Positions 2,817-60,908 of a DNA stretch of 64,000 nt are shown here, piece after piece. Both the position numbers and the translations under genes were made by a program. Below the pieces are notes generated by a model, which searched no databases, was not told the origin of the DNA, and was given only the letters and a program-made list of their open reading frames with translations. This stretch comes from a virus, in the IMG/VR virus record IMGVR_UViG_3300032334_002567, positions 1 to 64,000 of that record. One strand, given 5' to 3'. Position 1 is the first letter of the stretch; the number at the start of each line of letters is the position of its first letter.

Positions 2817-3116
2817 CTAAACCCCAGCTTCGATCAAATCCATCAAGGGACGTCTTACCAAAGTGCTTTTTGATGAAACAATCCTTCTTTTCTGGCTTGA
2901 ACGTAAATTGCTTTGTTTCGCAATCTTACTACGGTTATAGGTCTTTACAGGGGCTTTTGAGGCCACTCTAACAATATTTCCGTCCCTGAGTTCGTAACCC
3001 TTAATATGGTCCTTTGTGGACTCAATAACCAATACGGTTCTGCGAACCGGATGAGTGTGATTCCCCTTATACCAAAAACGAGCTACTGGGACATTTTCAA
3101 CTAAATCATACTTCAT
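2817..3116 (-). CDS. Small basic protein, unknown
   Basis: 99 aa with a good AAGGAG Shine-Dalgarno sequence. Its ATG overlaps the stop of the upstream CYTH gene (ATGA), so the two are translationally coupled. The N-terminal half (residues ~8-50, FWYKG...RRTVLVIESTKDHIKGYELRDG) looks like a small beta-barrel module. The C-terminal half is rich in Arg, Lys and Ser. No family is recognised; nucleic-acid binding would fit the charge but is a guess. Confidence 0.65.
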   Translation of the reverse strand: MKYDLVENVPVARFWYKGNHTHPVRRTVLVIESTKDHIKGYELRDGNIVRVASKAPVKTYNRSKIAKQSNLRSSQKRRIVSSKSTLVRRPLMDLIEAGV

Positions 3117-3655
3117 TTGTCAATCTCCTTTCTAATTTCTGTGAGTAACTGTGAAGCATATCGTGCATCTCCAAGTAATTTATTAGAAAATCGTGTGTCA
3201 GTCAAGGGGACTACATATAATAAATTTTCTTTCACAACATCAGGAGTGTCATGAGGCTCATATTGATCTTCTGGCAATTCGACTTCTGCTATTGCCATAT
3301 AAATATGCTCTTTATAATCTCTAAAGAAATCAATTTCCCAAGTATTTTCAAATGAATTAATTATATAACGGGTTTTTTCTAAACGGTTAAGAGCTATATT
3401 CCAAAGATCATCAAAATCTCGCTTATCTAACTTCTTTTCTACTTCTATAGCTCTACCACCTGTTGTAGCTTTTAAAGTAAAATAGTACTCAGTCTTTTGA
3501 TTGCTTAGTTTTACAGACTTACGAACACGTACCGTTATACCTCTTGTGGCTATAAGATAACCTTGGGATATGTCATACTGTGAGGATGAATTCTTTTTAA
3601 CTTCCGACTCACAGAGAGAATCTATGACATATTTTCTTTCATTTTCTGTAGGAAT
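3113..3655 (-). CDS. CYTH-domain triphosphate tunnel metalloenzyme, probable ATT start
   Basis: The open frame continues far upstream of the first in-frame ATG (3298) and encodes a complete CYTH/TTM barrel. Numbered from ATT at 3655 (180 aa): ExExK-type motif ENERK at 4-8, RVR at 43-45, FTLK at 59-62, VEKK at 72-75, KTRY at 94-97, WEID at 106-109, EVELP at 124-128, DTRFSN at 153-158. CYTH enzymes hydrolyse or make triphosphates (adenylyl cyclase CyaB, thiamine triphosphatase, inorganic triphosphatase) with these acidic and basic residues lining a tunnel and binding metal. There is no ATG or GTG ahead of ENERK; an AGGAG overlapping the upstream stop (TAGGAG) sits 8 nt before an ATT. The substrate cannot be predicted. 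Truncation to the ATG at 3298 would remove most of the barrel. Confidence 0.8.
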   Translation of the reverse strand: MPTENERKYVIDSLCESEVKKNSSSQYDISQGYLIATRGITVRVRKSVKLSNQKTEYYFTLKATTGGRAIEVEKKLDKRDFDDLWNIALNRLEKTRYIINSFENTWEIDFFRDYKEHIYMAIAEVELPEDQYEPHDTPDVVKENLLYVVPLTDTRFSNKLLGDARYASQLLTEIRKEIDK

Positions 3656-3666
3656 GGATAAATCTC

Positions 3667-4092
3667 CTATTTTTTTAGTATCTGTCTATAGCTGTCTACA
3701 TCTTCTCTACTCTTCTGAACCTGTCCTTCTAAGAATATCTCTAGCCACTGTCCGTCTACGCCACCAAGCTCAACAGCATCTTTCATTCTTTGAACATAAT
3801 TTTCTACAACTTCTTCTTCCATCTTTAAAGCGTAGGCAAATATTTGCTCAGGATCTGTAAATTTTTCAAAGCTATTTCTTTCATCCGTAGCCGTACCGCC
3901 CAAACCAAGTATTACATCTGAGAATTCTGTGACATGGATCATTTCACCAGCAGCTTCTTTTAGAAAAAATTCTTTATATTCCTCACGGTTTAAGCCAGTC
4001 ACGGCACTTGCGTGATAAAGGTAGAAACAAAGATGTTTCCATTCATTTTTCAAGTCGTTCTTTAATAAATCTATCATTTTATCTTTATTCAT
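3667..4092 (-). CDS. Ferritin-like diiron protein
   Basis: 141 aa, mostly helical, matching the four-helix ferritin-like pattern: E17 in helix 1, an ExxH pair in helix 2 (E50, H53), an acidic MEEEVVENY helix 3, and a further Glu (EGQ) in helix 4 near residue 122. This spacing is typical of bacterioferritin/Dps/rubrerythrin-like diiron sites. The role could be iron storage or peroxide protection during infection; a redox role is equally possible. It has a good AAAAGG ribosome binding site and its TAG overlaps the ribosome binding site of the CYTH gene, so both are one operon. Subfamily is not resolved. Confidence 0.7.
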   Translation of the reverse strand: MNKDKMIDLLKNDLKNEWKHLCFYLYHASAVTGLNREEYKEFFLKEAAGEMIHVTEFSDVILGLGGTATDERNSFEKFTDPEQIFAYALKMEEEVVENYVQRMKDAVELGGVDGQWLEIFLEGQVQKSREDVDSYRQILKK

Positions 4093-41824: not shown

Positions 41825-44098
41825 ATGTCAAAGCAACACAAGAAAACGAGAAACTTTCACGCTGGAATGGGTCAAGCTGTAGCGGAGAGAACGATTCTCA
41901 GAAAGAAAGAAGATGGTAAGTGGGAAACATGGGCAGATGTTGCCAATCGTGTTGCACTAGGAAATTCACTTCTATGCAAAGAATCAAAAGAACAAGAGTC
42001 AGAATATGAGGCTTTACAAAAGCATTTAATAAACGCAACAACTCTTATGAGCGGTAGACATCTACAGCACGGAGATGAGTCGCAACCAGAAAGAAACATG
42101 GAAGTTTACACCAACTGTTCAACTTCCAGCACTAGCTTCATGCTTTTTTACTTATTAATGAACGGTTCTGGTGTGGGTAGAAGTTATGACGACGACATGA
42201 TGCTTGTTGATTGGGATAACGCTCCAGCTCTTAGGTGTGTTTTAAGTGAAACTCATGCAAATTTTGATTTTTCGGCTCACGAATCTGTGAGAGATGCAAA
42301 ACACAAATATGGCAGCGGCAAAGACGTTTTATGGCATCTCGTTGAAGATACAAGAGAGGGATGGGCAAAAGCACTAGAAATATGGGAAAATGCAGCTTTT
42401 GAAAAAATCCATAAAGATAAATTGTTCATACTTGACTTTTCAAACGTTCGACCAAAAGGTGCTCCTATAAATGGAATGCAGAAACGTCCAGCTAGCGGAC
42501 CTGTTCCCTTGATGAACGCATTCAACAAAGCTGCAACTCTAAAAGCAACTGGTTTGCCCCGGTGGATGCAGACAATTTATATTGATCATTATTTTGCCGA
42601 ATGTGTTTTGGTCGGTGGGGCCAGAAGAGCAGCAAGAATGTCTACTAAGACATGGAGAGATGATAGTGTGTTAGAATTTATTACTATCAAAAGACCAATT
42701 GAATTTGCCAATAAAGGGGTAGATGAAATAACAGAGCTAAGAAAGCAAATAAGTCCAATGGGATTCTTGTGGTCTTCAAACAATAGCATTACTGTTGACC
42801 AAGAATTCTGGAAGCTCTTGAATGTAAAAAAAGGTAGTGAAGAATATAGTTCTGAATTAGCCAAACATGCAAGGAATGTTTATAAACTTGCAGTTTCTGC
42901 TTCTTATGGTGATGGCACTGGTGAGCCTGGATTTATCAATGTTGACAAACTAAATCAAGATAAGCTCGGAACTGAGAAGCTTGTTAAAGAAAGTGACTCA
43001 CTTGTTGGTAGCAAAAAATATAGCTTAAATGAAGACACAGGACTTTATATTAATAGGCTTTTGAAGAAAGCTGTTAAAAAACAGCATTTCATGATAACCA
43101 ATCCATGTGGTGAAATTTCTATTGCTGTGTGGGGTGCTTTTTGCACTATTGCGGATGTGGTTCCTTATCATGCTGAAACCTTGGAAGAAGCAGAAGACGC
43201 ATTTAGGTGTGTTACAAGAGCTTTAATCAGGGTAAACACCATGGATAGTGTTTATAAAAAAGAAGTTAAAAGAACTAACAGAATAGGAGTTGGAATAACT
43301 GGGATTCATGAATTTGCATGGAAGTTCTTTGGATTAGGATTTAAAGATCTAATAAATGAAGAAAAGTCCAAGGAATTTTGGATGACTATGGCAAGATTTA
43401 AAAGAGCCGTGCAAGACGAAGCCAGAGAATACTCAAAGAAAATTGGCGTAAATGTTCCTCATTCTGACACGACAATTAAGCCTGCTGGCACAACGAGTAA
43501 ATTATTTGGCCTCACAGAGGGATGGCATCTACCGTCTATGAGATGGTACATGAGATGGGTTCAATTCAGTAAATCAGATCCATTGGTCAAAAAGTATAGT
43601 GAATCTGGTTACCCTGTGAAAGAACTGACTAGCTACCAGAATACTGTTATTATCGGATTTCCAACTACCCCAGTTATAACTGAGCTTGGGATGGAAGACG
43701 CCCTGATTACAGCCGGTGAAGCTTCACCAGAAGAGCAGTACAAGTGGTTAATGCTCGGTGAAAAATACTGGATTCGTGGCGTAGATGTTGACGGAAATCC
43801 ACTAGATAAAGATACGGGAAACCAAATTAGCTACACGTTAAAGTACAACCCCAATAAGGTTGATTTTAAGACTTTCTGTGACACGCTAAAAAATAGTCAG
43901 AGCCTAATTAAATGTTGTTCGGTAATGCCACAAGAAGATCGTAGCAGTTATGAATATTTACCAGAGGAATCGGTGACAAAAGCAGAATACGAAAACGTTG
44001 TAAGAAAAATTACTTCTTCTTTGCAGGAAGACGTAGATCGTACACACGTAGATTGTGCAGGCGGTGCATGTCCCGTTGACTTTAAGAAAGAATCATGA
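41825..44098 (+). CDS. nrdJ: Class II (adenosylcobalamin-dependent) ribonucleoside-triphosphate reductase
   Basis: 757 aa, close to the monomeric Lactobacillus-type enzyme. Active-site residues: C98 in YTNCSTSS and the NPCGEIS loop with C428 and E430. The C-terminal dithiol C744-AGGA-C749 re-reduces the active site. It converts ribonucleotides to deoxyribonucleotides with B12 and so works with or without oxygen, needing no small subunit. It has an AAAGGTG ribosome binding site. Its ATG sits behind the membrane protein, and its TGA overlaps the next ATG (ATGA at 44095-44098). GC content is a little above the surroundings, which may reflect bacterial origin. Confidence 0.93.
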   Translation: MSKQHKKTRNFHAGMGQAVAERTILRKKEDGKWETWADVANRVALGNSLLCKESKEQESEYEALQKHLINATTLMSGRHLQHGDESQPERNMEVYTNCSTSSTSFMLFYLLMNGSGVGRSYDDDMMLVDWDNAPALRCVLSETHANFDFSAHESVRDAKHKYGSGKDVLWHLVEDTREGWAKALEIWENAAFEKIHKDKLFILDFSNVRPKGAPINGMQKRPASGPVPLMNAFNKAATLKATGLPRWMQTIYIDHYFAECVLVGGARRAARMSTKTWRDDSVLEFITIKRPIEFANKGVDEITELRKQISPMGFLWSSNNSITVDQEFWKLLNVKKGSEEYSSELAKHARNVYKLAVSASYGDGTGEPGFINVDKLNQDKLGTEKLVKESDSLVGSKKYSLNEDTGLYINRLLKKAVKKQHFMITNPCGEISIAVWGAFCTIADVVPYHAETLEEAEDAFRCVTRALIRVNTMDSVYKKEVKRTNRIGVGITGIHEFAWKFFGLGFKDLINEEKSKEFWMTMARFKRAVQDEAREYSKKIGVNVPHSDTTIKPAGTTSKLFGLTEGWHLPSMRWYMRWVQFSKSDPLVKKYSESGYPVKELTSYQNTVIIGFPTTPVITELGMEDALITAGEASPEEQYKWLMLGEKYWIRGVDVDGNPLDKDTGNQISYTLKYNPNKVDFKTFCDTLKNSQSLIKCCSVMPQEDRSSYEYLPEESVTKAEYENVVRKITSSLQEDVDRTHVDCAGGACPVDFKKES

Positions 44099-44646
44099 AT
44101 TTCAAAGATTTTTTAGTTTGCGAACAACAAGTAAGTTTGAGCCAAAAAATTGGCCCGATCCTAGGGGACGCACAACAGTTGCGTGATCAGGCCAATAAGC
44201 TTGCTGTAAAGCATTTAGCCCAATTTTCTGGGGATGTGGTGAGAAAGATAAGGGATATACTTCATAGCCATTGGTCGGATGAACAAGTTAAATATTTAGA
44301 AAGGCTAAGAATTGTAGCTTTTAATATAGCTGATGCTATAAAAGAAAAAGGAGACCTACCAGGAATCATAGCTGCATCTGTGGAAGAATTAGATAAAATT
44401 GTTAAGGACATTGGTTCTCCAATAAACTCACTTGCAGTTGATCCAGGAACCGATAATAAAGAAACGGATTCAAAGGGCACAAGTCCCGCAATTAAGAACG
44501 TACCAAATAAGGACCAGTCCAAGCCGCCAGCACAAACTAAAACTGTTGATTCGGCCGTAACAGCTACAAATCCACTTAGCAACGATCCTGAGTCGGTTGT
44601 AAGCCCTCCTTTGGGAGGCAGCTCTGGTACTTTAGATGCGTTTTAA
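44095..44646 (+). CDS. Probable internal capsid protein with targeting N-terminus
   Basis: 183 aa, coupled to the RNR stop. MNFKDFLVCE-Q fits the targeting peptide with a V-C-E site. The body has a helical domain (~15-105: QLRDQANKLAVKHLAQF...HSHWSDEQVKYLERLR) and a disordered Asp/Ser/Pro/Thr tail. No recognised function. Packing between an RNR and a GMP reductase gene is odd for a virion protein. Confidence 0.55.
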   Translation: MNFKDFLVCEQQVSLSQKIGPILGDAQQLRDQANKLAVKHLAQFSGDVVRKIRDILHSHWSDEQVKYLERLRIVAFNIADAIKEKGDLPGIIAASVEELDKIVKDIGSPINSLAVDPGTDNKETDSKGTSPAIKNVPNKDQSKPPAQTKTVDSAVTATNPLSNDPESVVSPPLGGSSGTLDAF

Positions 44647-44713: not shown

Positions 44714-45757
44714 ATGAAAGTTGAAAGCGAAATAAAGCTAGATTTCAACGATGTGTTAATAAAGCCAAAAAGAAGTAGTCTCGAAAGCAGATCTCAAGTA
44801 GACCTGAATAGAGAATACAAATTTAGAAATTCTTCCATAAAAATTGAGGTTGGTGTGCCTCTCGTAGCAGCCAACATGGATACAATTGCTACGTTTGAAA
44901 TGGCCCGAGCTTTGTCAAAAAGAAACATATGGACAGCCTTACATAAATTTTACTCTATCAATGAGATTGAAAAATTTTTTAAAGAAGAAGCAGACGTAGC
45001 TTCTAAGTGCTTTTATTCTCTAGGAATAAATGAAGATGATTTTGATAAGATAAAAAAACTTCAAGGATTAGGTGTAAAGCTTCCGTTCATTTGTGTTGAC
45101 GTTGCAAACGGCTATAGCCAAAAGTTCGTAAATGAATGTGGTTATTTAAGAAAGCTATTCCCAAATGCAGTAATATTGGCTGGGAACGTATGTACACCAG
45201 AAATGGTACAAGAGCTACTGATTTCGGGCGGAGTGGACATAATTAAAGTAGGGATAGGTGGTGGAAGTGGATGTATCACTAGGCATACAACGGGCATAGG
45301 ATTTCCACAACTTAGTGCCGTAATAGAATGCGGCGATGCTGCTCATGGTCTAGGCGGGCATATCTGCTCTGATGGTGGTTGTAGGGCTCCTGGCGACATA
45401 GCCAAAGCATTTGCTGCTGGTGCTGACTTTGTGATGATGGGAGGCATGTTAGCGGGGCATGATGAATGTGGAGGTGAATTTAAACTAAATGAAAATGGCG
45501 AAAGAAAATCCATGTGTTTTTATGGAATGAGCTCTGAGCTTGCTATGAAAAAATACTATGGAGGCAAAGCTAGCTATAGAGCAAGTGAAGGAAGAGTAAT
45601 AGAAGTCCCCTATAAAGGCCATGTAGATCAGACTATAGAACAAATATTGGGTGGGTTAAGAAGCACTTGCACTTATGTTGGTACAGATAAATTAAAAGAC
45701 TTATCAAAGTGCACTACATTTATAAGAGTGAATAGAGTACACGATAATATGAATTAA
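44714..45757 (+). CDS. guaC: GMP reductase
   Basis: 347 aa, the same length as E. coli GuaC, and similar along its whole length. The catalytic loop reads GIGGGSGCITRHTTG, with the conserved Cys but Gly where E. coli has Pro and Val. The phosphate-site motif SDGGCRAPGD and the GGMLAGHDECGGE segment follow. It reduces GMP to IMP with NADPH, steering purines away from guanine and releasing ammonia. A phage-borne copy may rebalance purine pools for its own DNA. The flap residues AEYRAAEG-like (ASYRASEG) are intact. Confidence 0.92.
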   Translation: MKVESEIKLDFNDVLIKPKRSSLESRSQVDLNREYKFRNSSIKIEVGVPLVAANMDTIATFEMARALSKRNIWTALHKFYSINEIEKFFKEEADVASKCFYSLGINEDDFDKIKKLQGLGVKLPFICVDVANGYSQKFVNECGYLRKLFPNAVILAGNVCTPEMVQELLISGGVDIIKVGIGGGSGCITRHTTGIGFPQLSAVIECGDAAHGLGGHICSDGGCRAPGDIAKAFAAGADFVMMGGMLAGHDECGGEFKLNENGERKSMCFYGMSSELAMKKYYGGKASYRASEGRVIEVPYKGHVDQTIEQILGGLRSTCTYVGTDKLKDLSKCTTFIRVNRVHDNMN

Positions 45758-45768
45758 GAGGTGAAAAT

Positions 45769-46911
45769 ATTTGTGGAATAGCAGGTTTTATAGGTTTATC
45801 TAAAAAACCTATCTTTAGTTACCAGCTTACAACTAAACTATTTGAAATAAGTGAATCCAGAGGAATTGATGCCGCAGGATTTTGGGCCGTGCGTCCTGAT
45901 GGTGGCGTTATATACCATAAAAAACCCATTAGATCATCTAGGTTTGTAAAGAGAGATGAATGGAGGGATGTTTTTAAATATAATCCTAATTTATTATTAG
46001 CACACGCAAGAGGAGCTTCTAAAGGTGTAGGAGAGCCTATGTTTAATAAAAACAATCATCCTTTCACAAGCTTAGACAAGTCTATTGGTCTTATCCACAA
46101 TGGCAGGGTAGAAGACTCTGAGTATCGGTCTTTAAAAAAAGCATATGAAGTATCAAGTGATTGCGATTCTGAAGTTATCCTTAGAATAATAGAAGCTGGC
46201 TCGCACTATCATCCGCATGAGATTACAGAGTTTATAAATCTGGATTATCCAAATAGATTAGCAGGGATTAGGGACGTTTATTCCTTTATAAACTCTGGTC
46301 ATTTAGCTGTGGCTGTGGGTGAGAGGAATGACGAAAACAATAGATCCCTGTGGCTTTTTAGAAACGCTTATAGACCTCTTTGGATTGTGGATATGCGTGA
46401 GCTACTAGGACAAATATTCTTTGTCTCAGAGCCGGGAATATGGGAGGAGTCAATAAATGAATGTCCTTCTATTAGAGGACATTCTAAATTTCAAAAATTA
46501 ATAGAGTTGCCACCGGAAGAAGTTTGGTTGATAGAATCAACAAAAGAAGAACCAACTCCAAATAAAATAAAAAAATACAAAGTTTCTAAAAGCAAAGAAA
46601 TAAGTGCTAATGAAATAAACAAATATTTTCCATTGATAGAAAAGCAGCCGTCGTTTGAAGTAATAAGCACAATAAGCGAAGAAAAAGAAACCCACCAATT
46701 TTTCGAAAATAATGATTGGGAAGAATTAGAATTAAAAGAGCTTGAAAGTAAATGCAACAAAGTTTCAGAAACTGTTCAAGAAATTAAAAATTGGGTAAAA
46801 GAAAAAACTACAAAACAGTCTATAGGCAAGGACGAAATAGATAGAATCTCTAATTTAATGAATAATCAAATCGATGATATGAACAAAATAGTTTCAATAC
46901 TGGAGAATTAG
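45769..46911 (+). CDS. Class II glutamine amidotransferase (GAT-II) with an ATT start
   Basis: 380 aa. There is no ATG; reading from ATT 45769 (5 nt after GAGGTG) gives fMet-C2-G-I-A-G-F, placing the nucleophile Cys exactly where the Ntn hydrolase family needs it. Other active-site motifs: AHARGA (H79, R81), IHNG (N111, G112) and CDSE (D133). GAT-II domains release ammonia from glutamine for a partner synthetase. The C-terminal ~160 residues are helical and coiled-coil-like, not a known synthetase, so the acceptor enzyme must be separate; the amidoligase at 26824 is a candidate. Starting at the first in-frame GTG (45889) would delete the active site. Confidence 0.85.
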   Translation: MCGIAGFIGLSKKPIFSYQLTTKLFEISESRGIDAAGFWAVRPDGGVIYHKKPIRSSRFVKRDEWRDVFKYNPNLLLAHARGASKGVGEPMFNKNNHPFTSLDKSIGLIHNGRVEDSEYRSLKKAYEVSSDCDSEVILRIIEAGSHYHPHEITEFINLDYPNRLAGIRDVYSFINSGHLAVAVGERNDENNRSLWLFRNAYRPLWIVDMRELLGQIFFVSEPGIWEESINECPSIRGHSKFQKLIELPPEEVWLIESTKEEPTPNKIKKYKVSKSKEISANEINKYFPLIEKQPSFEVISTISEEKETHQFFENNDWEELELKELESKCNKVSETVQEIKNWVKEKTTKQSIGKDEIDRISNLMNNQIDDMNKIVSILEN

Positions 46912-46942: not shown

Positions 46943-47482
46943 ATGTCTTATAATTTTGAAGATTTTGAAGATTTTGTTACAGACGAAGATTTCTTAAATA
47001 AGAAGAAAAAGAAAAAAGTTAATGGAAAGAAAAAAGGCAATAGGACTGAGCTTGAACTAACTAAAATACTCAATAAGAGATTCGGAACAGGATTCAGCAG
47101 ATCAGTTGGCTCCGGAAATCGTTGGTCACAAACTAACCACTTGCCAAAACACGCCCAAGAAATATTTTCTGGGGACCTGATTGTTCCTTTGGGGTTTAAG
47201 TTTGTATTAGAAAGCAAGGGCGGCTACGAAGACATAGACATAAATGGTCTATTTGTACGAGGCAACAAAGAACTTGATGGATTCTTGGACCAAGTTTCAA
47301 GAGATGCCAAAAGATGTGACAAAAAACCAATGCTATGCTGGAAGAAAAACAGAAAACCGTGGTTGGTTGCTATTTTGACTAAAGACATGACACGGGAGTT
47401 CAAATATGAACTTCGCTACGGAAAATGGTCTATTCTAGCACTTGAAGAACTTCTAGGTTTAGAGGACGAGTTTTTCATCTAA
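46943..47482 (+). CDS. Holliday-junction resolvase-like nuclease (Hjc-type PD-(D/E)XK)
   Basis: 179 aa with a GAGG ribosome binding site. After a Lys-rich N-terminus the core has E36 in RTELELTK, SRSVGSGNRW, D78 in GDLIVP and E90-S-K92 in LESKGG, the order of archaeal Hjc resolvases. It would cut branched recombination or packaging intermediates. It replaces the T4 gp49 type (endonuclease VII), which I do not see here. It converges with the MoxR-operon end by 4 bp. Confidence 0.82.
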   Translation: MSYNFEDFEDFVTDEDFLNKKKKKKVNGKKKGNRTELELTKILNKRFGTGFSRSVGSGNRWSQTNHLPKHAQEIFSGDLIVPLGFKFVLESKGGYEDIDINGLFVRGNKELDGFLDQVSRDAKRCDKKPMLCWKKNRKPWLVAILTKDMTREFKYELRYGKWSILALEELLGLEDEFFI

Positions 47483-53739: not shown

Positions 53740-54950
53740 TCTTCCACCTTAAAAGTAAAATCAATGTCTAAAAACTTATCACTTATTCTTTTTTTGTCTT
53801 CTTCGCTTATTTCTTTGCTAGAAATGATTAAAATACTTTCTACTTGACATCTAACTTGTTTTATACCTATTATATTTAAACTTAGTAATTCTTGTTTAAT
53901 TTTATTTATAGATTCACCTTTAATTGTAAAAGGTCTACTATCTAAAAATTCAAATTGACGATAAAGCCTTCCGCAATCACAACGAGAATATTCTTGCTCT
54001 ATTTTACAATAATCTCCATTCCAATATCTTATAAAAGGACTTGGTAACGAAAAATAATCAGTGCTAAGTAATTTTTTGTCTTTTTCTTCGCACCAACTTA
54101 AATTATCTAATAGATGTTGTCTTCTTTCTTTACAAGTGATAAATGTAGATCCGCCATCCCAGCAACGCATATGGTCACAAAATTTATCTATAAAACCAGA
54201 TTCCAATAAAAAGCTTACATCTTTTTTGAGTATTTTTTCATTTGTATTGCTTAAAAGTGTACAAATTTTACCCTTAAAATTAAACTTTTTAATATAGTGA
54301 CACAAAGAGTTTATAGTAGAACCGGGACCTAACAAAACATCTATTTTATTTTCAGATAAAAATTTCAGCAAATCACGATAAAAAACATCTGGTTGATATT
54401 TGAGTAATTCTAAACTAGCACAATGCGATGTGGATTGATACTTTTCGCCATGCTTCTCCATAAAATTAGGGGGGTTTTTAAAAGTCTCCACGGCATTGTT
54501 AGACACTACCCTATTCTTAAAAAGATAAAGAACATGTGGATTAAAAATATTAAATTCGTCTAAAATCAAATCATAATGATTTTCACATTCTATGAATTTT
54601 AAGAATGGATCCCACCTAAGATACTCAAATCCAACGCCGGTTGTGCTTCCACTACTACGCATTATTTGAGATTCAGATGATAACTCACTAACATACCAAT
54701 CCTTTTTATTCAACAAATCGTCTTTTGAAAAATAAAATTGATTTTTATCTCTATAAACCTTGCTGTTTTTAAAAGCCCAAAGCTCAATATTTTTCTTTAA
54801 AACATTAACAACATCTAAAAGAACTTCTTGATCTTCATAAAGCAAGCCAGAACAAAAACTTTTGTAATCGTACAATACTTGTTTATTAGGTAAGTTATTT
54901 TTCCATTTAACTAGAAATTCTTTAGTTTTTTTATAACCTAGTTTTAGCAT
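53736..54950 (-). CDS. PaaK/CapK-like adenylate-forming enzyme
   Basis: 404 aa. The AMP-binding P-loop SSGSTTG is at 99-105, a VLLGPGSTINSL segment at ~205-216, and a CxC pair (C324, C326) in EYSRCDCGR leads into SRPFTIKGESIN, as in phenylacetate-CoA-ligase-like proteins (PaaK, CapK, F390 synthetase). These activate a carboxylic acid as the AMP ester. A phage-borne member could provide activated carboxylate for amide formation or envelope modification. The N-terminal lid is degenerate. It shares a strand with the Cys-rich protein and a LAGLIDADG-like gene. Confidence 0.6.
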   Translation of the reverse strand: MLKLGYKKTKEFLVKWKNNLPNKQVLYDYKSFCSGLLYEDQEVLLDVVNVLKKNIELWAFKNSKVYRDKNQFYFSKDDLLNKKDWYVSELSSESQIMRSSGSTTGVGFEYLRWDPFLKFIECENHYDLILDEFNIFNPHVLYLFKNRVVSNNAVETFKNPPNFMEKHGEKYQSTSHCASLELLKYQPDVFYRDLLKFLSENKIDVLLGPGSTINSLCHYIKKFNFKGKICTLLSNTNEKILKKDVSFLLESGFIDKFCDHMRCWDGGSTFITCKERRQHLLDNLSWCEEKDKKLLSTDYFSLPSPFIRYWNGDYCKIEQEYSRCDCGRLYRQFEFLDSRPFTIKGESINKIKQELLSLNIIGIKQVRCQVESILIISSKEISEEDKKRISDKFLDIDFTFKVEE

Positions 54951-54952
54951 AG

Positions 54953-55513
54953 CTATAACATAAAATCTGGTGTTTTTGGAGTAATGTATTTTAGGAACTC
55001 CACAGTTCCATTATTTGTAAAAACTACCTCATATCGACCTCTACATTGATGAGTGCTGCATTCGCAGTCCAAAGATCTAAAGTACTCTGCAATTGTTTCG
55101 CTTCCAGTTTTCCCAAATTTTTGTGTTCTAAGATAACATTTTCTTTTGCTTCTTCTGCCTGAGTCTAAAAACCAAACCATCCAAGACTCATCTGTCAAAA
55201 CCTCTAAAGTTTCCCGAGCTATTATCTTCGATGAGTCTTTATAAAAAATGTTATGTATGTCATTAAAGATAGGATATGCTACACTATAAACTCTATAAGT
55301 ATTTTTATCTTTTTTTATAGTATTCTTATCTATCTTAAAAAAATTACTTAACATATCAACTTTATAAGACAGCCAGTCTTTATTTTTATCTCGCATGGCC
55401 AAGTAGCAGTTCTTACCTTTGGATGGTCTTATAATAGAAGAACCTCCCAAGATAGTACCATAAAGCACTTGCTTTTGTTTTTCTGTAAATTTTGGACCAA
55501 TTTGGTAAGTCAT
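54953..55513 (-). CDS. LAGLIDADG-like homing endonuclease, catalytic Asp altered
   Basis: 186 aa. Motif 1, LYGTILGGSSI (residues 17-27), corresponds to LxGxLLGDGxI but has Gly in place of the catalytic Asp. Motif 2, WMVWFLDSGRR (110-120), keeps D116. Freestanding LAGLIDADG proteins are mobile elements in phages. The lost Asp suggests a decaying or repurposed copy. It sits between an adenylate-forming enzyme and a capsid-targeting-type gene, 2 bp from the former. Confidence 0.68.
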   Translation of the reverse strand: MTYQIGPKFTEKQKQVLYGTILGGSSIIRPSKGKNCYLAMRDKNKDWLSYKVDMLSNFFKIDKNTIKKDKNTYRVYSVAYPIFNDIHNIFYKDSSKIIARETLEVLTDESWMVWFLDSGRRSKRKCYLRTQKFGKTGSETIAEYFRSLDCECSTHQCRGRYEVVFTNNGTVEFLKYITPKTPDFML

Positions 55514-55516
55514 AAA

Positions 55517-56056
55517 TTAATCTTTGTCTTTAAAAAATTGCATATTTTTATCTGCCCATTCTATAACCATGTGCGTTCCTCTGGACAACAGTCCTACCAA
55601 TTGGGTGGGGTTTCCAGAACCCTCTATTGATATGTTTTCTCTTTCATTATTCTCGATCCAAACCAAAGAAAATATTAAACTTTTTCTTTTCTTAAGTTCT
55701 TCTACCATTTGGTGAATAGTAACTAGAGATAAATCTGGGATGCCTAGTTCTTGATATTTTTTCTTTAGTTTTTCTTCTTGGGACTCAATTATTAGCAATA
55801 AATTATCAGAAAGAGCTTTTAAACCAGCTTCTAAATTTGCTCCACTAAAAAATATTTTACATAAGTTTGAATCAACTTTGGTTAATTTGGCTTCGAAACT
55901 TGTCGTTTCATTAGCATTTTTTACCATGTATTCTATTTCTTCTTGCACTCCCCTAGACAGTATTTCATAAAAAACAAAGAAAGGTCCGTCTTTTGTTTCT
56001 ACTAATTTAACCCCGTCTATTCTTTTAAAAATATTTATAAAATCTTCAAAATTCAT
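55517..56056 (-). CDS. Hypothetical protein with partial targeting-type N-terminus
   Basis: 179 aa. MNFEDFINIFKRIDG starts like the targeting peptide but has no (I/L)xE site nearby. The body is alpha/beta with a coiled-coil stretch (EEKLKKKYQELG). It lies 7 bp downstream of a clear targeting-type gene and may have lost the site. Function is unknown. Confidence 0.5.
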   Translation of the reverse strand: MNFEDFINIFKRIDGVKLVETKDGPFFVFYEILSRGVQEEIEYMVKNANETTSFEAKLTKVDSNLCKIFFSGANLEAGLKALSDNLLLIIESQEEKLKKKYQELGIPDLSLVTIHQMVEELKKRKSLIFSLVWIENNERENISIEGSGNPTQLVGLLSRGTHMVIEWADKNMQFFKDKD

Positions 56057-56633: not shown

Positions 56634-56930
56634 ATGGAAAAAGAAGAAAAAGAAGAGATTATAAAGTTTGAGAATAGAAAGACTTTTGAAGTCAAAATGA
56701 GACCTGCCAATGGAGGGGGAATAGAAAAAGCAATTTTTATAGATGGTGAACTACTAGATTGGCAAGTAGATATAAACTCTTTGGTAGATGCTATGAAAAT
56801 GGGGCCACAGTACATGAGAGAAATTCAAAGGGACATAGAAAAGCACTTTGTAGAATCTGTGTCTGATACTGTTGGAAGAAAAGTCACAGCAGAAGATATT
56901 AAACAAGCAATTAAAGTTGGATATATCTGA
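56634..56930 (+). CDS. Hypothetical protein
   Basis: 98 aa with a GGAGG ribosome binding site. A basic N-terminus is followed by an alpha/beta region and a C-terminal helix (SDTVGRKVTAEDIKQAIKVG) reminiscent of short histone-like or NAP contacts, without a match I trust. It lies 1 bp before the aminotransferase ATG, so it is coupled to it. Confidence 0.55.
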   Translation: MEKEEKEEIIKFENRKTFEVKMRPANGGGIEKAIFIDGELLDWQVDINSLVDAMKMGPQYMREIQRDIEKHFVESVSDTVGRKVTAEDIKQAIKVGYI

Positions 56931-56931
56931 T

Positions 56932-58206
56932 ATGAGTATGGTACATGATATACTGTGTAAACACACTATAGGCGATGGAGAAAAAATCGTCATAGACCCA
57001 GTTAAAAGCAATGGTGTGTATCTTGTAGACTTAATTGATGGAAAAAAATACCTAGACTGTTCAAGTCAATATGCCAGCATGGCTCTTGGTTGGAATAATC
57101 CAACATTAAAAAAATACCTAGAAGAAAACAAAGAAAGTCTAAATTTCTGTAATTTGCATAAAATTGCAAACTGTGATTTTTACACAACAGTGTATGCAGA
57201 ATTTGTAAGCAAGTTTTCTGAAATTACAAGTGATTTCAAACATTTGTTTTTTGTAGAAGGTGGAACTTTAGGTGTAGAAAACGCAATAAAAGCAGCCTTT
57301 GATTGGAAAGCTAAGAAACTCGGGCTGACTCATAAAGCTTCTAATTCTATAGTTAACAAGTTCGATGTTATACATTTACAGCAGGCGTTTCATGGAAGAA
57401 GCGGATATTGTTTGTCTATAACTAACACAATAGCAAACAAAGTTTCATTGTTCCCAAAGTTTAATTGGACAAGAATAAAAAATCCAAAGTTAGAATTTCC
57501 TATCGTTGAAAGCAAAGTCGCAATAGATGAAGAGCTAAGCTTGTTGCAGGCCGAAAATGCTCTGAAATCGAATAATGTGGCTGCAATAGTTCTGGAAACC
57601 ATTCAAGGTGAAGGAGGTGATAATCACTTTAGAACAGAATATTTCAAAGCTTTGCGTAAACTTGCAGATCAATATGAGGCATTACTTATATTGGACGAGG
57701 TTCAAACTGGTGTTGGACTTACGGGTAAAATGTGGGCTTACCAACATTCTGGGATAATCCCAGATATAATAGCTTTTGGAAAAAAGACACAAGTTTGCGG
57801 CTTTGCTTCCACCGATAGGATTGATGAAGTTTCTGATAATGTTTTTCGTGAATCAAGTAGAATAAGTTCTACTTGGGGCGGTAATATAATTGATATGTAC
57901 AGATTTACTCAAATAATAGAAATATTACAAGAACAAAGATTGGTTGATAATGCCAAAGAAGTGGGCGAATATTTTTTAAATAAACTTTATGAAGTAAAAA
58001 ATATAAAGAATGTTAGGGGCAAAGGATTAATGATTGCCTTTGATCTAAATACAACCCAAGAAAGAAATGAAGTTCTAAAAAAGCTTCAGTCAGATATGGC
58101 TATATTGCCTTGTGGAGAAAAGTCAATTCGTTTAAGGCCACATCTCATCTTCTCTAAAGATAATGTAGATGAAGCCATATATTATATAAATAAATCTGTT
58201 TCTTAA
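56932..58206 (+). CDS. lat: L-lysine 6-aminotransferase
   Basis: 424 aa from ATG 56932, the first in-frame ATG after the previous stop. Class III aminotransferase with L-lysine epsilon-transaminase features: the AFHGRSGYC loop (152-160), LETIQGEGGD (221-230), D255/E256 in LDEVQTG, and the PLP lysine in AFGKKTQVCG (K284/K285), characteristic of Lat. It converts lysine and 2-oxoglutarate to allysine and glutamate. The same phage carries glutamate dehydrogenase nearby, which would recycle the glutamate. The ribosome binding site is weak. Confidence 0.85.
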   Translation: MSMVHDILCKHTIGDGEKIVIDPVKSNGVYLVDLIDGKKYLDCSSQYASMALGWNNPTLKKYLEENKESLNFCNLHKIANCDFYTTVYAEFVSKFSEITSDFKHLFFVEGGTLGVENAIKAAFDWKAKKLGLTHKASNSIVNKFDVIHLQQAFHGRSGYCLSITNTIANKVSLFPKFNWTRIKNPKLEFPIVESKVAIDEELSLLQAENALKSNNVAAIVLETIQGEGGDNHFRTEYFKALRKLADQYEALLILDEVQTGVGLTGKMWAYQHSGIIPDIIAFGKKTQVCGFASTDRIDEVSDNVFRESSRISSTWGGNIIDMYRFTQIIEILQEQRLVDNAKEVGEYFLNKLYEVKNIKNVRGKGLMIAFDLNTTQERNEVLKKLQSDMAILPCGEKSIRLRPHLIFSKDNVDEAIYYINKSVS

Positions 58207-59568
58207 TCAACCAAACCAAGTAAATTTGTTATCTTTACCACGACCTAATATGGAATTTAAAAATTCTTGGTCTGGTATGTTGTGATCTCCATACACGCCA
58301 CCTGTAGGATTGCCTCCCGAACTTACGTCTGAGCTGTAGTTGATGTTAGGAGGGGCAACATCTGAACTGCCTGTTCCAAAAGGCTCTTTTCTCTTTGTGA
58401 ATGAACCCTTTTCTCTAAGAGGCGGAGCTTTTAATGGCTTGTTTTTTCCTACATATTGATATGTTGCATGATCTGCTGCAGCTGAGTCTGGGCCCATGTC
58501 TGATACGCTTCCTGTTTGAGGACCAGCACCAACAAAAGACTGATAACTTTCTGGAGGCTGTTGTGCTGATTGTGTATTTTGTGGTGTTTGATTTCCCATA
58601 TTTCCTAATTTATCAACTACAGCATTTAAAGTCTTGGTAAAATCTTGATTAACATTAGTATTGCCTAGTTTAGACTGTAAATCACGTAGTGCAGACATTG
58701 CAAGAGTTATAGACTGCAGATCTCTTTCAGCGTCTACTCCAGCTTGTCTTTGTTGTCCAGCCTTGCCCCAATTTGACCAAGCAGATTTTACATTGGCCCA
58801 TTGATTGCCTATCCAATCACCTGCTTTTTGCAACCAATTCTCTGAGTAATTATCTACATACCACTCTGTGAAAGCTACAATATCTATTCCTTGATTTTGC
58901 AATTCAAATAGTTGCTTTTTTATTTCTAGGTCTTCATCAAAAAACTCTGTTTGAACAGATTCATCTAAACTATTTTTAAGTAAACCAATTAAATTAATTA
59001 TATTTTTATGAAACTCTGGATCTGCTACTTTATTTTGTAGATCTTTTGAAACCCCTAACCTTTTGGACAAAGTATCTAATGCATGTCTGGCAACCGCTTG
59101 GGATTTTTGAAGGGGTGTCATTTGTGGTTGTGGTTGTCCATTAGTAGTTGTAGAACCTTGCTGTGCTTGGGCTTGGTTTTGATTTTGTTGTGGTTGATCT
59201 CCTATGACACCCTTTGTAAAACTATCTCCGGCTCCTTTTGCAGAACTTGCCCAAGAACCGATTCTTTTGGCTAAACCTTGTGCTGCTGAGCCTAGGGCAC
59301 TTCCCATATATTCTGCACTTGCTGATGGCTTTTCTACAGAAGAACCGGCTGAGTAACCTTGACTGGCTCTGTTAGCCAAACCTGCTGCTGTCGGGAACCA
59401 TTTGTTCAAAAATTCATTTAAAATAAGTTTATCTTCAAATTGACCATCTTCAACATACCAATTGATGAATTTTTCTGGGTCTATACCCTTGTCTGCCATT
59501 ATAACCAGTGCTTGTTCTAGCAATTTAATGTTTTTGGTGATTCTAAGACTTTCAGAAAAACTTCTCAT
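58207..59568 (-). CDS. Structural-like protein with duplicated N-terminal domain
   Basis: 453 aa from ATG 59568, with TTAGGAG upstream. Two ~55-residue segments share a pattern: L...A.QGID...F..WYV, at residues ~28-75 and again at ~222-275 (GIDPEKFINWYVED, GIDIVAFTEWYVDN). These are separated by a long Ala/Ser/Gln-rich, low-charge linker. The C-terminal ~120 residues are Gly/Ser/Pro-rich. The start MRSFSESLRIT is a partial match to the targeting peptide. Likely a virion or core protein. Confidence 0.6.
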   Translation of the reverse strand: MRSFSESLRITKNIKLLEQALVIMADKGIDPEKFINWYVEDGQFEDKLILNEFLNKWFPTAAGLANRASQGYSAGSSVEKPSASAEYMGSALGSAAQGLAKRIGSWASSAKGAGDSFTKGVIGDQPQQNQNQAQAQQGSTTTNGQPQPQMTPLQKSQAVARHALDTLSKRLGVSKDLQNKVADPEFHKNIINLIGLLKNSLDESVQTEFFDEDLEIKKQLFELQNQGIDIVAFTEWYVDNYSENWLQKAGDWIGNQWANVKSAWSNWGKAGQQRQAGVDAERDLQSITLAMSALRDLQSKLGNTNVNQDFTKTLNAVVDKLGNMGNQTPQNTQSAQQPPESYQSFVGAGPQTGSVSDMGPDSAAADHATYQYVGKNKPLKAPPLREKGSFTKRKEPFGTGSSDVAPPNINYSSDVSSGGNPTGGVYGDHNIPDQEFLNSILGRGKDNKFTWFG

Positions 59569-59648
59569 ACTTTCTCCTAAATTATTCAAAATATCTCTCT
59601 TTTATATAGAGAAGACCTGTATTTTTTACCAATAACCAAGGAAATAAC

Positions 59649-60908
59649 ATGACAATGCTCCAAGAAGCTAAAAAACAACTAGAAGCAGCGTATGGGTTTG
59701 CACAAATAGACAAAGAAAGCTGGGAGCGTCTTCAATATCCACAAAAAACACTACAAGTCTCTATCCCAATACGTCACGATGATGGCACCTTAAAGGTTTA
59801 CCAGGCGTACAGATGCCAGTATGACAGCACACTTGGGCCATATAAAGGAGGGATAAGATATCATCCAAATGTAGATCGTGATCACTGTGAGGCTCTTGCT
59901 TTTTGGATGACTTTTAAATGTGGTTGTTTAAAACTTCCTTACGGAGGTGCAAAAGGTGGTATAAGTGTAGATGCAACAAAATTATCGCACAGAGAGCTAG
60001 AAAGAATCAGCAAGGCATATATTGCTTCAATAATGGACTTTATAGGCCCCGATTCAGATATACCTGCTCCTGATCTTTACACAGATGAAAGAATAATGGG
60101 ATGGATGTATTCTGAGTACAAAAGAATCAAAGGAGGCCATCCAAAAGACATTATAACCGGCAAGCCAGTGGCGTTAGGAGGAATAGAAGGAAGAAGCTCC
60201 GCTACAGGTCACGGTGGTTATTATGTTTTAGAAAATATTTTGAAAAGCAATGTGAAAGATATTTCAACTAATCCAGAAGATATTAAAATAGCAATACAAG
60301 GTTTCGGCAAAGTAGGTTACTGGCTTGCAGAGAAGTGCTTTAGATCAGGTATGAGAGTAGTGGCAGTTACGAACGAATTTGGTGGAGTTTATAACAAGAA
60401 TGGATTAAATATAATTTCTTGTAAAAAATGTATAGAAAATAGCTCTGGACAAGAGTGGGGTGAAGGAGAAAAAATTACAAATGAAGAAATTTGGGATTTA
60501 GATGTAGACGTAATTGCTCCTTCTGCGGTGGAAAATGTGATTACTAAAGATATAGCATCTAAGATTAAAGCTAAAATAGTTTTAGAAATGGCTAATGGAC
60601 CAACTACAAATGAAGGGGATGCAATTTTAAATGATCGTGATATTTTAGTTGTCCCAGATATATTGGCAAATGGCGGAGGAGTAGTTGTTAGCTATTTTGA
60701 ATGGCTCCAGAACAGAAATGCTATTACAAGGTCCTTAGAAAAAGTGGAAGCAGACCTAAAAGAAATGATGGTCTATGCAACAGAAAGAGTTTTAGGGTTA
60801 CACACAAAACACAATATACCAGCAAGAACTGCTGCTTATGTTTTAGCACTCAAAAGAATAAACGATTCAAATGTTTGTTTAGGAATAAAAGACTACTTTC
60901 AAAAATAA
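59649..60908 (+). CDS. gdhA: Glutamate dehydrogenase
   Basis: 419 aa, full length for the hexameric family. Substrate residues are conserved: K66 in GPYKGGIRYHP, K90 and K102 in LPYGGAKGG, and D142 in PAPDLYTD. The cofactor domain has the GFGKVG dinucleotide loop near residue 217, and the NGPTTNEG and ANGGGVVVSYFEW segments fit bacterial/archaeal GDH. It interconverts glutamate and 2-oxoglutarate plus ammonia. GDH is very unusual on a phage. The start has AAGGAAATAAC ahead. It diverges from the virion-like gene, and its 3' end overlaps a convergent gene by 10 bp. Confidence 0.93.
   Translation: MTMLQEAKKQLEAAYGFAQIDKESWERLQYPQKTLQVSIPIRHDDGTLKVYQAYRCQYDSTLGPYKGGIRYHPNVDRDHCEALAFWMTFKCGCLKLPYGGAKGGISVDATKLSHRELERISKAYIASIMDFIGPDSDIPAPDLYTDERIMGWMYSEYKRIKGGHPKDIITGKPVALGGIEGRSSATGHGGYYVLENILKSNVKDISTNPEDIKIAIQGFGKVGYWLAEKCFRSGMRVVAVTNEFGGVYNKNGLNIISCKKCIENSSGQEWGEGEKITNEEIWDLDVDVIAPSAVENVITKDIASKIKAKIVLEMANGPTTNEGDAILNDRDILVVPDILANGGGVVVSYFEWLQNRNAITRSLEKVEADLKEMMVYATERVLGLHTKHNIPARTAAYVLALKRINDSNVCLGIKDYFQK

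Follow-up and report, generated by a model that had tools for sequence, protein, structure and literature searches.

An ATT start codon behind an extended Shine-Dalgarno sequence in a class II glutamine amidotransferase gene of a huge phage

The amidotransferase gene and its start site

The window analyzed here is a stretch of 64,000 nucleotides (positions 1 to 64,000) of IMG/VR virus record IMGVR_UViG_3300032334_002567, which comprises 381,443 bases and carries a terminase, a class II ribonucleotide reductase, and at least 10 tRNA genes. On its forward strand, positions 45769 to 46911 encode a 380-amino-acid protein that matches GATase_6 and phage amidotransferase families (PF13522, 4.6e-8; phrog_4736, 7e-17), and a profile search with this family finds PurF and GlmS. 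The protein has the hallmarks of a class II (Ntn) amidotransferase, with a cysteine directly after the initiator residue and Arg, His-Asn-Gly, and Asp sites that align with those of PurF; C2, R31, H79, R81, H110-N111-G112, and D133 are invariant among 36 relatives. The predicted structure (pLDDT, 92.3; residues 1 to 10 at 97, with the first strand beginning at residue 3) has a GlmS/PurF-type Ntn glutaminase fold, with GlmS 2j6h and PurF 1ecf as the best matches to the model (E about 1e-12). The likeness to PurF and GlmS is confined to their glutaminase domains, with which it shares the catalytic Cys directly after Met, the HNG and D residues, and the fold; their second, synthase domain, expected of an orthologue of either, was not found. 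Unlike PurF and GlmS, it carries no phosphoribosyltransferase or isomerase domain but has its own C-terminal part with a two-helix hairpin, and its structural matches to them are only ∼18% identical. Cellular relatives are GlmS-like only, at ∼30% identity. Three viral homologues (L232, L235, and L236) are about twice the usual length (∼740 to 765 amino acids), with an extra C-terminal part.

Most of 100 viral loci preserve the cassette around this gene, and VWA and MoxR-type genes frequently accompany it on the opposite strand. An uncharacterized gene upstream (44095 to 44646, forward strand) has a same-strand upstream homologue in 72 of the 100 loci, and a PDDEXK nuclease gene (46943 to 47482, forward strand; PF24608, 9e-26) follows the amidotransferase in 87. 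In the window, the uncharacterized gene is separated from the amidotransferase by a GMP reductase/IMPDH-family gene (44714 to 45757, forward strand; PF00478, 2.5e-72), whose stop ends 11 nt before the ATT discussed below; it is 52% identical to enterobacterial GuaC, and its placement is shared by 1 of the 100 relatives (L196). Class III aminotransferase and glutamate dehydrogenase genes, unusual in phage, lie at 56872 to 60908 of the window; taken with the amidotransferase and GMP reductase genes, they point to a set for nitrogen metabolism.

A TAA stop (45745 to 45747, forward strand) bounds the amidotransferase frame on its 5′ side, and from there the frame reads TAT GAA TTA AGA GGT GAA AAT ATT TGT GGA. 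Reading back to this stop bears out the claim of a first-pass annotation that no ATG, GTG, or TTG precedes the catalytic cysteine; no CTG is present there either. The sole plausible in-frame start before the cysteine is ATT at 45769 to 45771, followed by TGT at 45772 to 45774 (both forward strand), which encodes Cys2, the catalytic Ntn nucleophile, invariant in the 36 aligned relatives and aligned with the Cys of PurF and GlmS. From 45758 the sequence runs GAGGTG-AAAAT-ATT-TGT-GGA-ATA-GCA, so that an extended Shine-Dalgarno (SD) sequence, GAGGTG (45758 to 45763, forward strand), complementary to CACCUC of 16S rRNA, is separated from ATT by a 5-nt spacer, AAAAT, a spacing and coordinates that the first-pass annotation gave correctly; the predicted duplex of GAGGTG with the anti-SD has an energy of −11.7 kcal/mol. 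RNA structure at the start was not above that of shuffled sequences (z = 0.25).

Two other ways of reading the 5′ end were weighed. Translation might begin at the first canonical in-frame codon, GTG at 45889 to 45891 (forward strand), or the gene might be dying after loss of its start. This GTG lies 40 codons 3′ of ATT, inside the conserved domain and beyond C2, G3, G6, G9, R31, G32, A35, and G37; it is rejected as a start because residues invariant in 36 aligned sequences would be deleted, and the earlier argument that it would remove the active site thus holds for Cys2 and for the other invariant residues. The frame is moreover intact over 380 codons with all invariant residues kept, and the gene sits in a conserved cassette, all of which makes a lost start highly unlikely. 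Alternatively, ribosomes might initiate at the GTG inside GAGGTG (45761), from which GTG AAA ATA TTT GTG GAA TAG is open for six codons, and then shift into the amidotransferase frame. The distance from this GTG to Cys is 11 nt in the window and 10 nt in most ATT relatives, so different shifts would be needed; there is no classical slippery heptamer, relatives with canonical starts begin directly with Met-Cys, and in sigR, too, a GTG within AGGAGGTG had been wrongly annotated as the start (PMC5472188). We give this frameshift next to no chance. To judge from the reading frame and its alignment, the protein is very probably a stand-alone class II (Ntn) amidotransferase of a huge phage whose translation begins at ATT 45769.

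Start codons and Shine-Dalgarno pairing across the family

A single-sequence query of viral contigs returned no close relatives of the amidotransferase. Related viruses were reached instead through terminase and RNR, and their six amidotransferases have ATG (five) or GTG (one) at the aligned start position. A profile search on internal peptides, which is blind to the start codon, yielded 62 distinct viral relatives, all of which have ATG, GTG, TTG, ATT, or ATC at this position and no other codon, an agreement beyond chance. Comparison with relatives, which the first-pass annotation had proposed as a check, thus places the start codon exactly here: among 63 sequences (the 62 relatives and the window) we found ATG in 41, GTG in 7, and TTG in 6, and the ATT reading is further backed by recurrence, with ATT in 8 (7 relatives and the window) and ATC in 1. 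About a third of the family therefore has a non-ATG start.

Viral contigs were also scanned for ATT, ATC, or ATA before a Cys-Gly-Ile motif, a search whose results overlap the start-blind set. It returned 33 records, of which 6 are chance matches and 27 belong to the amidotransferase family (24 ATT, 3 ATC, and no ATA). No canonical in-frame codon lies upstream in 18 of 23 distinct ATT/ATC copies, and the other five have one further upstream. When start codons were mapped as ATT/ATC or not on a tree of 72 rows, the label changed nine times, with at least six of the changes forced by well-supported branches, although the bootstrap values are not fully settled. In two groups, one of 7 rows and one of 6, every start is ATT/ATC, and the nearest relatives of the window's amidotransferase start with ATG. 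Given the nine changes and the two uniform groups, the trait has recurred and is also stable inside groups.

Pairing of the 20 nt upstream of the start with the anti-SD was calculated for 77 distinct copies, assuming a standard anti-SD that may not be that of the host. Mean pairing was −5.05 kcal/mol for ATG, −7.95 for TTG, −8.44 for GTG, and −11.79 for ATT/ATC; SD strength is thus graded with start weakness, weaker starts carrying stronger pairing. The window's value, −11.7 kcal/mol, is attained by only 1 of the 41 ATG relatives. Strong SDs are also rare within this virus, in which −11.5 is reached by 5 of 161 ATG genes. The arrangement is equally distinctive: GGTG followed by exactly 4 nt precedes the start in 21 of 23 ATT/ATC copies and in 0 of 54 canonical ones (Fisher, 6e-17), in an ATT set made up partly of sequences chosen for ATT. 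In the start-blind subset alone, the corresponding numbers are 5 of 6 and 0 of 54 (p = 1e-6); some start-blind ATT copies are represented in this comparison by identical records that the second scan had returned. The base preceding the start is a pyrimidine in 23 of 23 ATT/ATC copies, versus 26 of 54 canonical ones. With its 5-nt spacer, the window is an exception to the GGTG-plus-4-nt rule, unlike nearly all other ATT copies.

These comparisons bear on the simplest alternative, that ATT at 45769 to 45771 reflects a sequencing or assembly mistake at its last base, 45771, where the true codon would be ATG. The window is a single record, and its nearest relatives on the tree do have ATG. However, ATT/ATC recurs at the aligned position in independent assemblies (some 20 distinct copies in other records), and therefore ATT is not the error of one record; 8 of 9 one-step non-canonical changes from ATG are to ATT (p about 1e-6 under equal chance), the record itself has an ATT-type SD context, and two further genes in the same record start with ATT (see below). 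An error is accordingly very improbable, and as judged by comparison of sequences, ATT is a real, SD-compensated weak start.

Two further ATT-start genes in the same virus

The second ATT gene lies on the reverse strand of the window at 3113 to 3655, with its ATT at 3653 to 3655 and AGGAG 8 nt upstream. Its 180-amino-acid product resembles that of phage genes annotated as inorganic triphosphatase or CYTH, and its frame has no ATG, GTG, or TTG before 3298; the gene is absent from canonical-start ORF lists. A frameshift at 3685 to 3667 (reverse strand) was considered and rejected in favor of a distinct CYTH-like gene that starts with ATT. The third is a Zn-ribbon (PF09723-like) gene outside the window, at virus position 114505 (L398, 10505 to 10840; forward strand), with an SD and with no ATG, GTG, or TTG in the whole frame. 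Relatives of both genes have ATG or TTG at the start codon, and one relative of each (L444 for the Zn-ribbon gene) has ATT behind GGTG plus 4 nt. Staphylococcal cvfC1, which starts with AUU, is likewise a small putative zinc finger.

A coding-potential survey of virus bases 1 to 164,000 found three ATT genes among 177, and the same survey of 100-kb stretches of eight other viruses found one, an amidotransferase; ATT starts are therefore sparse. The amidotransferase, CYTH-like, and Zn-ribbon families all begin with Met-Cys or Met-Pro and have conserved N termini, so that a replacement start further down is impossible, which may explain why ATT is visible in these three families. In virus record G087 (54493 to 55800; L410), a DNA polymerase III alpha-like (PHP) frame has no canonical start in its first 41 codons, for which an intron, a frameshift, or another odd start are candidate readings.

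Precedents, possible meaning of the weak start, and the phage IF3

Non-canonical starts directed by an extended SD are a mechanism class already known from bacteria, as in infC and cvfC1. In Staphylococcus aureus, cvfC1 starts with AUU, and ccpN and infC start with AUA, each with an extended SD, and in poor medium the non-canonical starts tested there yielded ∼10% of the output obtained with AUG (PMC13009471). The phage amidotransferase shares with AUU starts of the infC/cvfC1 type the lack of a canonical start at a conserved N terminus, recurrence of the start in relatives, and an extended SD, GAGGTG. The infC gene, which encodes IF3, has a start of the AUU class (AUU in E. coli, AUC in Streptomyces, and AUA in S. 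aureus, where an extended SD is predicted as it is here); it differs in encoding the very factor that rejects AUU and in regulating itself, whereas the gene here encodes a metabolic enzyme and the phage IF3 gene has an ATG start. Staphylococcal cvfC1 (AUU) and ccpN (AUA) likewise have a conserved non-canonical start to which an extended SD directs initiation (PMC13009471), but they are bacterial, putative or known regulators, in contrast to a phage enzyme family whose members have gained or lost ATT several times. Streptomyces sigR shares a AGGAGGTG ribosome-binding site in which the GTG does not serve as the start, and tests there showed that IF3 represses its rare start (PMC5472188); sigR is one bacterial regulator with a GTC start, whereas the ATT of the phage amidotransferase is known here from sequence comparison. 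We did not find in the open-access literature searched a phage enzyme family with recurrent gain and loss of AUU and graded SD compensation. The recurrence of ATT in the family, the SD compensation, the two further ATT genes, and the phage IF3 had gone unnoticed in the first-pass annotation.

By analogy with known initiation, initiator fMet-tRNA would decode AUU with a third-position mismatch, tolerated because the strong, closely spaced GAGGTG holds the mRNA in place; deformylation and loss of Met would then leave Cys as the N-terminal nucleophile. If the S. aureus output is a guide, the weak start would lower amidotransferase synthesis relative to AUG, and the ATT start probably limits expression, keeping synthesis low. 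That selection keeps it for this reason, and because it makes synthesis responsive to IF3 or to infection phase, we judge to be about an even bet. ATT could instead be functional but devoid of regulatory meaning, a drift from ATG that is tolerated while a strong SD compensates, and to this we assign a chance somewhat below even. The frequent turnover among ATG, GTG, TTG, and ATT, the compensating SD strength, and the presence of ATT in two unrelated genes of the same virus are all consistent with drift; however, entire groups retain ATT although a single substitution would bring back ATG, the pattern scan returned no ATA, which is as near to ATG, and non-ATG starts make up so large a share of the family.

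Few bacterial genes are documented to start with AUU, and common gene finders do not consider this codon, so that phage genes with AUU starts will be truncated or missed. The family also offers repeated natural experiments within one group of viruses, in which starts switch among ATG, GTG, TTG, and ATT with SD strength changing alongside, and thereby makes possible a direct test of the trade-off between SD pairing and start codon. With an IF3 gene in the same genome, control by a phage of start-codon stringency also becomes testable.

Within about 7 kb of one another, the virus carries genes for IF3, bS21, and peptide deformylase (L268, 1243 to 1773; L468, 1435 to 1683 and 2009 to 2497). Residues R112, R116, R147, and R168 of E. 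coli IF3 are important for fidelity, and in an alignment the phage protein has S, D, H, and N at these positions. IF3 and S21 in huge phages were already known (PMC7162821; PMC7824862), and IF3 normally destabilizes or represses initiation at AUU (PMC5472188). The AUU starts might then mark a gene set controlled by phage IF3 (and bS21), which would reset start-codon stringency during infection; the three translation genes, the known repression of AUU, and the four divergent residues suggest such a link, as does the presence of IF3 in 3 of 4 records >100 kb with an ATT amidotransferase versus 4 of 16 whose amidotransferase starts canonically. However, these proportions do not differ significantly (p = 0.10); most ATT records are fragments in which IF3 was not detected, several viruses with IF3 have an ATG amidotransferase, and ATG is the start codon of the phage's own IF3 gene, so that this gene does not fit autoregulation of the infC kind, the AUU gene being the amidotransferase. 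We therefore consider control by phage IF3 unlikely here, and equally doubtful is the wider proposal that huge phages with IF3 and bS21 alter the stringency of host ribosomes and that genes with AUU and an extended SD form a regulon following phage IF3 activity. The virus's CAT tRNA was also considered as an initiator and rejected because it has a G1-C72 pair and an anticodon stem without GGG/CCC.
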